Position numbers and translations under genes: made by a program. Shown one piece after another: positions 22,534-34,920 of a stretch of DNA of 64,000 bases. Under the pieces are notes generated by a model. It saw nothing but the letters and a program-made list of their open reading frames with translations, ran no database searches and had not been told where the DNA came from. Where the stretch lies: positions 1,163,501-1,227,500 of the forward strand of contig NZ_CP041330.1 in assembly GCF_013394165.1 (NCBI RefSeq). Direction: 5' to 3'. The DNA comes from Pseudoalteromonas sp. Scap06. Its GTDB lineage: Bacteria; Pseudomonadota; Gammaproteobacteria; Enterobacterales; Alteromonadaceae. Position 1 is the stretch's first letter. Each line of letters begins with the position of its first letter.

Positions 22534-22610
22534 GGAGTGGTAGTTCAGTTGGTTAGAATACCGGCCTGTCACGCCGGGGGTCGCGGGTTCGAGTCCCGTC
22601 CACTCCGCCA
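22534..22610 (+). tRNA. tRNA-Asp (GTC), copy 1
   Basis: The 77-nt gene includes encoded CCA. Acceptor GGAGTGG pairs with CCACTCC, the anticodon loop reads CTGTCAC (GTC), and the T loop is GGTTCGAGTCC. It is the first of an array of identical copies behind a strong promoter. Confidence 0.97.
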
Positions 22611-22637
22611 ATTTTCGACAATTTGTAAGTATGCGCT

Positions 22638-22714
22638 GGAGTGGTAGTTCAGTTGGTTAGAATACCGGCCTGTCACGCCGGGGGTCGCGGGTTCGAGTCC
22701 CGTCCACTCCGCCA
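22638..22714 (+). tRNA. tRNA-Asp (GTC), copy 2
   Basis: The 77-nt gene is identical to copy 1, with anticodon GTC and encoded CCA. The spacer to copy 1 is 27 nt. Confidence 0.97.
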
Positions 22715-22755
22715 ACACTTACACAACATATGGTTGTAAAACATATTCTTATTAT

Positions 22756-22832
22756 GGAGTGGTAGTTCAGTTGGTTAGAATACCGGCCTGTCACGCCGGG
22801 GGTCGCGGGTTCGAGTCCCGTCCACTCCGCCA
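22756..22832 (+). tRNA. tRNA-Asp (GTC), copy 3
   Basis: The 77-nt gene is identical to copy 1, with anticodon GTC and encoded CCA. Confidence 0.97.
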
Positions 22833-22863
22833 ATAAGAAAAAATAACAGTTTAAATACGCGCT

Positions 22864-22892
22864 GGAGTGGTAGTTCAGTTGGTTAGAATACC
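22864..22892 (+). other. truncated tRNA-Asp 5' fragment (assembly artefact)
   Basis: The first 29 nt of a tRNA-Asp stop abruptly at a synthetic transposase end sequence. The same 29 nt and their upstream flank recur after the adapter as part of the intact next copy, so this is a duplicated sequencing insert and not a gene. Confidence 0.9.
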
Positions 22893-22946
22893 TGTCTCTT
22901 ATACACAGCCTTATCGTCGGCAGCGTCAGATGTGTATAAGAGACAG
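22892..22946. other. Illumina Nextera adapter contamination
   Basis: CTGTCTCTTATACACA (22892-22907) is 16 of the 19 bases of the Tn5 mosaic-end complement. Six bases later, 22914-22946 is exactly the Nextera read-1 adapter: TCGTCGGCAGCGTC followed by the mosaic end AGATGTGTATAAGAGACAG. The 14-base tag is synthetic and does not occur in natural Tn5, so this is library adapter retained in the assembly. Confidence 0.97.
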
Positions 22947-22961
22947 GTTTAAATACGCGCT

Positions 22962-23038
22962 GGAGTGGTAGTTCAGTTGGTTAGAATACCGGCCTGTCAC
23001 GCCGGGGGTCGCGGGTTCGAGTCCCGTCCACTCCGCCA
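22962..23038 (+). tRNA. tRNA-Asp (GTC), copy 4
   Basis: The 77-nt gene is identical to copy 1. Its true upstream flank is the one at 22849; the 98 bp in between (22892-22989 or an equivalent phase) appear artefactual. Confidence 0.95.
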
Positions 23039-23076
23039 ACTATTTAAACACTGTTATATTACAAAATTTGTATGCT

Positions 23077-23153
23077 GGAGTGGTAGTTCAGTTGGTTAGA
23101 ATACCGGCCTGTCACGCCGGGGGTCGCGGGTTCGAGTCCCGTCCACTCCGCCA
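23077..23153 (+). tRNA. tRNA-Asp (GTC), copy 5
   Basis: The 77-nt gene is identical to copy 1, with anticodon GTC and encoded CCA. Confidence 0.97.
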
Positions 23154-23190
23154 ACAAATTAAGTAATGACAAGTAAAAAGATATCTCTGC

Positions 23191-23267
23191 GGAGTGGTAG
23201 TTCAGTTGGTTAGAATACCGGCCTGTCACGCCGGGGGTCGCGGGTTCGAGTCCCGTCCACTCCGCCA
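23191..23267 (+). tRNA. tRNA-Asp (GTC), copy 6
   Basis: The 77-nt gene is identical to copy 1, with anticodon GTC and encoded CCA. Confidence 0.97.
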
Positions 23268-23320
23268 TTTGATATCGTAACAAAATTAGTAAGTGCATTA
23301 CCCCATGCACATACCACTGC

Positions 23321-23397
23321 GGAGTGGTAGTTCAGTTGGTTAGAATACCGGCCTGTCACGCCGGGGGTCGCGGGTTCGAGTCCCGTCCACTCCGCCA
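23321..23397 (+). tRNA. tRNA-Asp (GTC), copy 7
   Basis: The 77-nt gene is the last copy and is identical to the others. It is followed immediately by a 9-bp hairpin. Confidence 0.97.
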
Positions 23398-23461: not shown

Positions 23462-23503
23462 CTATCAGCTATCAGCTATCAGCTATCAGCTATCAGCTAT
23501 CAG
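23462..23503. repeat. heptamer tandem repeat (CTATCAG)x6
   Basis: Six perfect head-to-tail copies of CTATCAG occupy 42 bp between the tRNA-Asp array and the ABC genes. Such simple repeats are prone to slippage, so copy number may vary between strains. Confidence 0.95.
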
Positions 23504-23701
23504 TCACAATTAACAAGTCAGCCTTGATAGGCTTGAGTTAAAAAAAACCTAGTTTAATTTTTAGTTTAGTTCAAAGCTTTACGTGTTATCAAAATTCAAA
23601 TTATCTTTTAAAACAGTTCTTATTGTCCTTAGGCTAAGTCATAACGCCGCAGATGTAAAAAGCTTATCTTTATAGTGAACTATTAGGGTGAATCGCTGTT
23701 G

Positions 23702-34194: not shown

Positions 34195-34920
34195 TTATTT
34201 AATTGCTACCATTGAGCAAAAATTAAAACATTGATACCACACTTGCGTTTGGCTAAAACCAATGTCGCTTAAACGTTGTGTATGTGTGCTAAGTGTATCG
34301 GGGCGCATTACGTTTTCAATGGCGGTACGCTTTTGGCTTATTTCAAGCTCAGAGTAGCCATTATGACGCTTAAAGTCGTGGTGCAAGTCAATCAATAGGT
34401 TATCGCATTGCTCGTTTTCGGCTTTAATTTTTTCACTTAGTAGCAAAACGCCACCGGGCTTTAAATTAGCGTATATTTTTTCAAGTACCGCTTTGCGCTG
34501 CGCTGGTGGAATAAACTGCAGGGTGAAATTCATCGCCACTACCGATGCATTTTGAATATCGAGCTCGTTGATATCACCTAAAGTTACAGTTACAGGAACG
34601 TCTGATCTGAACCCTTGTAAATGGACCTTACAACGCTCCACCATGGCTTGTGAGTTATCTACAGCAATAATGTGGCAGCTATCAGTTTGAATATTACGGC
34701 GCATACTTAGGGTAACCGCCCCTAACGAGCAGCCTAGGTCATACAAATTTGAATTTGGCTGAGCATACTCACCGGCTAATTTCCCCATAGTACTGACTAT
34801 GGTGGCGTAACCGGGTACCGAGCGTTGGATCATGTCGGGAAATACTTCAACCACATTTTGATCAAAACTAAAGTCTTTTACTTGTTGCTCAGAGGCATAA
34901 ATACTGTCTTTTATACTCAC
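34195..34920 (-). CDS. cmoA: carboxy-S-adenosylmethionine synthase CmoA
   Basis: The 241-residue enzyme converts SAM and prephenate to carboxy-SAM. It shows FDQNVVEVFPDMIQRSVPGY, NLYDLGCSLGAVTLSMRR and VAMNFTLQFIPPAQR, typical of CmoA. It is the first gene of the cmoAB operon and is divergent from the DUF3334 gene. Confidence 0.96.
   Translation of the reverse strand: MSIKDSIYASEQQVKDFSFDQNVVEVFPDMIQRSVPGYATIVSTMGKLAGEYAQPNSNLYDLGCSLGAVTLSMRRNIQTDSCHIIAVDNSQAMVERCKVHLQGFRSDVPVTVTLGDINELDIQNASVVAMNFTLQFIPPAQRKAVLEKIYANLKPGGVLLLSEKIKAENEQCDNLLIDLHHDFKRHNGYSELEISQKRTAIENVMRPDTLSTHTQRLSDIGFSQTQVWYQCFNFCSMVAIK

Follow-up and report, generated by a model that had tools for sequence, protein, structure and literature searches.

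Untrimmed Nextera adapters in contigs are among the closest described counterparts of the locus analysed here, which lies in a 64,000-nt stretch of the Pseudoalteromonas sp. Scap06 genome (NZ_CP041330.1, positions 1,163,501 to 1,227,500; hereafter, the window). Both contain the same 33-nt read-1 adapter, immediately preceded by i5 index bases. A sample of public contigs yielded at least 246 copies of this adapter in at least 240 stretches, each cut at contig ends or at the stored limit. Among the matches listed, 236 of 246 copies lay no more than 60 nt from the beginning of their stretch when read in the adapter's direction, eight were at 61-200 nt, and two lay further in. Fewer than six upstream bases were present for 38 of the 246 copies listed; 199 of the remaining 208 were preceded by the end of one of 18 i5 indices, and nine were unmatched. 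By contrast, the adapter in the window lies inside a contig of 3.38 Mb, where both adapter sides and a duplicated insert are present. For the ten copies more than 60 nt from a stretch end, the 150 nt upstream contained no reverse mosaic end and no direct repeat of at least 14 nt flanked the adapter; the same double-adapter order was found in none of the viral contigs scanned. These searches therefore provided no second example of the exact arrangement. One of the two copies lying furthest in, from a viral contig (L147:2154-2186), carries the read-1 adapter shortly after NN, with letters of the S503 index before the adapter, which was apparently built in at a scaffold join. A literature search returned no paper tied to the present case, and we do not claim that none exists.

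The junction of a Nextera mate-pair library is another related structure, in which two mosaic ends stand back to back. It shares with our locus two inverted mosaic ends that face outward. However, the mate-pair junction is 38 nt long and has no tail, whereas the left end in the window comprises 16 nt and an index fragment together with the read-1 tail lies between the two ends. Seven 38-nt stretches resembling mate-pair junctions were found in viral contigs.

IS50-like elements of Pseudoalteromonas

The first 16 bases of the mosaic end in the window are also the outer end of native IS50/Tn5-like elements in the genus. We found the 16-nt mosaic end in 11 of 108 Pseudoalteromonas genomes and its reversed control in none of them. 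We inspected 18 stretches with 16-nt matches, drawn from seven other genomes; in 17 of them the match is followed by AAT or AGT and by sequence that looks native. The remaining one (L328, from G107) is an adapter running off the contig end. Adapter contamination as the explanation for the 16-nt matches in other genomes was rejected on the basis of these 17 native contexts, which look like the ends of IS50/Tn5-like elements. The genus scan was repeated with 19 nt for the same reason. The longer mosaic end was present in three of the 108 genomes. It is internal in the present genome and stands at base 1 of a contig in G107. In G072, eight copies fall among the first 36 bases of their contigs, and there are seven further copies.

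The identity of the IS50/Tn5-like elements was checked more closely for seven copies from G034, G106 and G108. The four copies in G034 are 1,488 nt long and run from CTGTCTCTTATACACAAAT to an inverted CTGTCTCTTGATCACAAGT; an exact 9-bp flanking duplication is present in two of them and absent in the other two. G106 has two copies of about 1.50 kb without a 9-bp duplication, each flanked by a 10-bp duplication (10/10 and 9/10 identical positions). The far end of the G108 copy was not found within the stretch examined. Two translated transposases match PF14706 and PF01609, and the one from G106 also matches PF02281, below the cut-off. The stretches L335-L340, L342, L343 and L346 contain native IS50/Tn5-like elements whose outer end is identical to bases 1-16 of the engineered mosaic end. 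Since native elements share these 16 bases at their ends, a 16-nt mosaic end cannot by itself identify an adapter in this genus. Unlike these elements, which measure about 1.49-1.50 kb in six copies and encode a transposase in the two that were translated, the inserted stretch in the window comprises 55 bp, too short for a transposase.

Composition of the insert in the tRNA-Asp array

The features in and around the insert are collected in Table 1. The initial annotation had recognised the Nextera read-1 adapter, and the match is indeed exact (33/33); it is the single match in the window at up to three mismatches and appeared in none of 100 dinucleotide shuffles. The reverse-complement mosaic end CTGTCTCTTATACACA, described there as preceding the adapter, is present over 16 bases. 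However, it does not abut the adapter, since GCCTTA (22908-22913) separates the two, and the origin of these bases in the index S521 had gone unmentioned. The two ends of the 55-bp stretch form a perfect 18-nt inverted repeat.

Table 1. Features of the insert and the surrounding tRNA-Asp array, numbered from the first base of the window
Feature	Position	Strand	Basis or remark
tRNA-Asp array, seven identical 77-nt genes	22534..23397	+	presumably 98 bp too long as assembled
Assembled copy 1 of the putative tagmented insert of 43 bp (15 nt from the end of spacer 3, 28 nt from the start of a tRNA-Asp)	22849..22891	+	exact repeat of 22947-22989
Reverse-complement mosaic end, 16 nt, putative insert read-through	22892..22907	-	
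AGCCTTA, the final 7 nt of i5 index S521 (GAGCCTTA)	22907..22913	+	index table, PMC7589761 Appendix B
Nextera read-1 adapter including the 19-nt mosaic end, exact	22914..22946	+	none in 100 shuffles
Second insert copy with its last C, running into the intact fourth tRNA-Asp	22947..22990	+	
Real fourth tRNA-Asp (GTC)	22962..23038	+	ARAGORN; same sequence as the other six
Boundary from insert to mosaic end			TTAGAATAC then CTGTCTC
Boundary from mosaic end to index			TATACACA then GCCTTA

We compared the 55 bases by a script with a prefix of the reverse-complement adapter followed by a suffix of P5, index and read-1 adapter. The i5 indices compared were 18, comprising the 16 from the table in PMC7589761 and two others; we took only index names and letters from that table, in which, as we read it, the index is followed by a TruSeq-type tail. 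S521, listed in Appendix B, was the only one of these 18 indices to explain every base, whereas the other 17 left 4-6 bases unexplained. With S521, the stretch is composed of the 16-nt reverse-complement mosaic end and 40 nt of index tail plus read-1 adapter, overlapping by one base (the A at 22907). The chance of a random 6-mer matching the end of any of the 16 indices in the table is 0.004. Judged from their letters, all 55 foreign bases are adapter-derived.

The 44 bases at 22849-22892 recur exactly at 22947-22990, in agreement with the initial annotation. The repeat is bounded on both sides, with A against G at 22848/22946 and T against G at 22893/22991. The same C at 22892 closes the repeat and opens the mosaic end, which leaves 43 bp for the insert, or 44 bp when this C is counted; the 43 bp are the 15 nt of spacer and the 28 nt of tRNA, with the C as one shared base. 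A deletion of 98 bp yields an identical product from every start between 22849 and 22893.

The second contig of the assembly also points to Pseudoalteromonas, as its first 18 kb matched 16 plasmid records, every one from this genus, with 82% identity over 43% of the query for the best-ranked record. To compare the array with those of relatives, we searched 30 of them with 1.8 kb around the array and kept the loci of 19. Seven tRNA-Asp genes were present in 9 of the 19 loci and one to six genes in the other 10, as counted in the stretch compared. Six Pseudoalteromonas relatives (L007-L012) have the same spacer series of 27, 41, 29-31, 37-38, 31-37 and 50-54 nt with recognisably similar spacer sequences, and L014, L015 and L016 have seven genes but different spacer series. 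The spacers in the window are 27, 41, 129, 38, 37 and 53 nt long. The third one thus has 129 nt, whereas its counterparts measure 31 nt in four of these six relatives and 30 and 29 nt in the other two. The proposed removal of 98 bp (22892-22989) does restore a normal spacer, as the resulting 31 nt equal in length the third spacer of four relatives, in which the sequence is nearly the same (ataagaaaaaataacagtttaaatacgcgct after the removal, ataagaaaaaataacagtttaaatatgcgct in L007 and L010). ARAGORN reported seven tRNA-Asp genes in the window both as it stands and after this deletion. The apparent eighth copy consists of only the first 29 nt of a tRNA-Asp gene (22864-22892), where ARAGORN found no gene with a full cloverleaf. 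The claim that the array has seven tRNA-Asp genes and that the partial eighth is not a gene is therefore correct.

Three further observations concern the array and its surroundings. A related locus, L013 (G008:C1:2309697-2313860), in which the spacer order differs, has ten Ns in the tRNA-Asp array, after a third-like spacer and near a tRNA start; this kind of place troubled another assembly as well. A search of phage sequences with the array returned tRNA-Asp copies and also phage records that match about 36-40 nt at window positions 22912-22952, which is the adapter part. A CTATCAG heptamer is repeated in tandem at window positions 23462-23509, and similar arrays are dispersed in this genome and in those of several relatives.

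Other adapter remnants in the assembly

Of the four exact occurrences of the 16-nt mosaic end in the whole assembly (4.13 Mb), two are in the window and the others are at C1:876658 and C1:2887733. A fifth match, with two mismatches, is at window positions 34904-34919, and one site of the reversed control matches equally well. At C1:876658-876681 (L270:6659-6682), 24 nt of the i5-side Nextera adapter are followed by a GC-rich (CCCCGAG)-like repeat. At C1:2887733-2887755 (L271:7734-7756), we observed 23 nt of the i7-side Nextera adapter, the last A of which starts a poly-A run. The former remnant lies between genes that we take to be yajQ-like and TonB-receptor-like, and the latter upstream of what is presumably a GntR-type regulator gene, as judged from the translations. 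Both are situated between larger open reading frames, and a mechanical frame of 78 aa overlaps the remnant at C1:876658.

Neither remnant has a flanking direct repeat of at least 12 nt within 200 nt. Their surroundings are not conserved in the relatives searched. Genome searches with 20 nt of the read-2 adapter and with 26 nt of P5, each allowing up to three mismatches, gave no matches, which indicates that the genome contains no full second adapter. Failed ends from a single Nextera library would explain all three adapter sites.

Origin of the inserted bases

The adapter and the 43-bp duplication in the tRNA array are almost certainly an assembly artefact and not biology, judging from the sequence comparisons. 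The locus combines a synthetic tail, adjoining index bases, and an insert on both sides whose restored sequence resembles that of relatives, as a Nextera read-through would leave. In this account, a Nextera molecule would have carried a 43-bp insert that runs from the last part of spacer 3 into the fourth tRNA-Asp; sequencing would have continued past the insert into the adapters on either side, and the reads would have been left untrimmed. The left end would then consist of the insert and the reverse-complement mosaic end, and the right end of the S521 index, the read-1 adapter and the insert. Joining these ends with a single-base overlap would duplicate the 43 bp and add the 55 synthetic bases. 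The initial annotation had likewise proposed that a 43-44 bp tagmented insert, read into both adapters, was threaded into the repeat during assembly. The adapter origin of all 55 bases, the exact duplication, the third spacer of 29-31 nt in six relatives and the two other remnants support this proposal in substance. A one-base overlap is smaller than what an ordinary assembler requires, which speaks against this account as regards the joining step.

The two ends could alternatively have been joined before assembly, in a library-PCR chimera of two adapter-bearing strands that was then sequenced faithfully and assembled. This would also be an artefact and differs in the joining step alone. A one-base overlap might arise more easily within a molecule than under the overlap rule of an assembler. 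Such a chimera, however, would prevail in the consensus only if enough reads supported it, and the other two remnants are one-sided and stand beside difficult sequence, which would fit failed assembly ends better. We regard a chimera as rather unlikely and infer that the ends were joined by the assembler or a gap closer rather than in a chimeric library molecule.

A natural origin was also considered, namely a real Tn5/IS50-type mini-transposon of 55 bp with the perfect inverted ends CTGTCTCTTATACACA...TGTGTATAAGAGACAG in the array. The 18-nt inverted repeat and the occurrence of genuine IS50-like elements with the same 16-nt end in the genus would be compatible with such an element. The 10-nt flanks of the 55 bases, GTTAGAATAC and GTTTAAATAC, are alike at 8 of 10 positions, and both native copies in G106 have 10-bp duplications, one of them with a mismatch. 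However, the 9-nt flanks match at only 3 of 9 positions, and there is no exact 9- or 10-bp target-site duplication around the 55 bases; the only exact repeat is that of 43-44 nt. The second 10-nt flank is nearly the same in relatives without the insert, four of which have GTTTAAATAT at the corresponding place in spacer 3. Each flank is ordinary sequence of its place, the tRNA in one case and spacer 3 in the other, and we read the 8/10 match as chance. Given this imperfect match and the mixture of 9- and 10-bp duplications among native copies, the missing target duplication is weak evidence, and the verdict instead follows from the synthetic tail together with the index bases and from the conservation of the spacer. 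The interior is a synthetic Illumina tail with index bases, which in effect refutes a mini-transposon. Moreover, the bases after the 16 nt are AAT or AGT in native elements but the engineered TCT at the right end in the window, and no copy of the exact 16-nt end exists in the genome beyond the window and the two other adapter remnants. The chance that this is a real mini-transposon is minute.

A strain that physically carries adapter DNA, such as one tagged by a Tn5 with Nextera ends, is just as implausible, since the outward-facing inverted ends are transposon-like but enclose an index fragment and no cargo, the 9-bp duplication is missing (3/9), and two more truncated remnants from different adapter sides occur elsewhere. 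It would be extraordinary for the site to be due to adapter DNA in the living strain, or to a natural mini-element of 55 bp whose ends are of the mosaic type and which includes the Illumina tail by coincidence.

The assembly artefact is, in its combination of parts, unusual in form and ordinary in cause. Its importance is limited to data quality: a chromosome-scale assembly has kept three or more adapter remnants, and through one of them a spacer has grown by 98 bp and 29 nt of a spurious eighth tRNA-Asp have appeared. For the genus, the comparison means that an adapter screen keyed to the 16-nt mosaic end falsely flags the IS50-like elements of Pseudoalteromonas, with hits in 11 of 108 genomes as against 3 of 108 for the 19-nt end.
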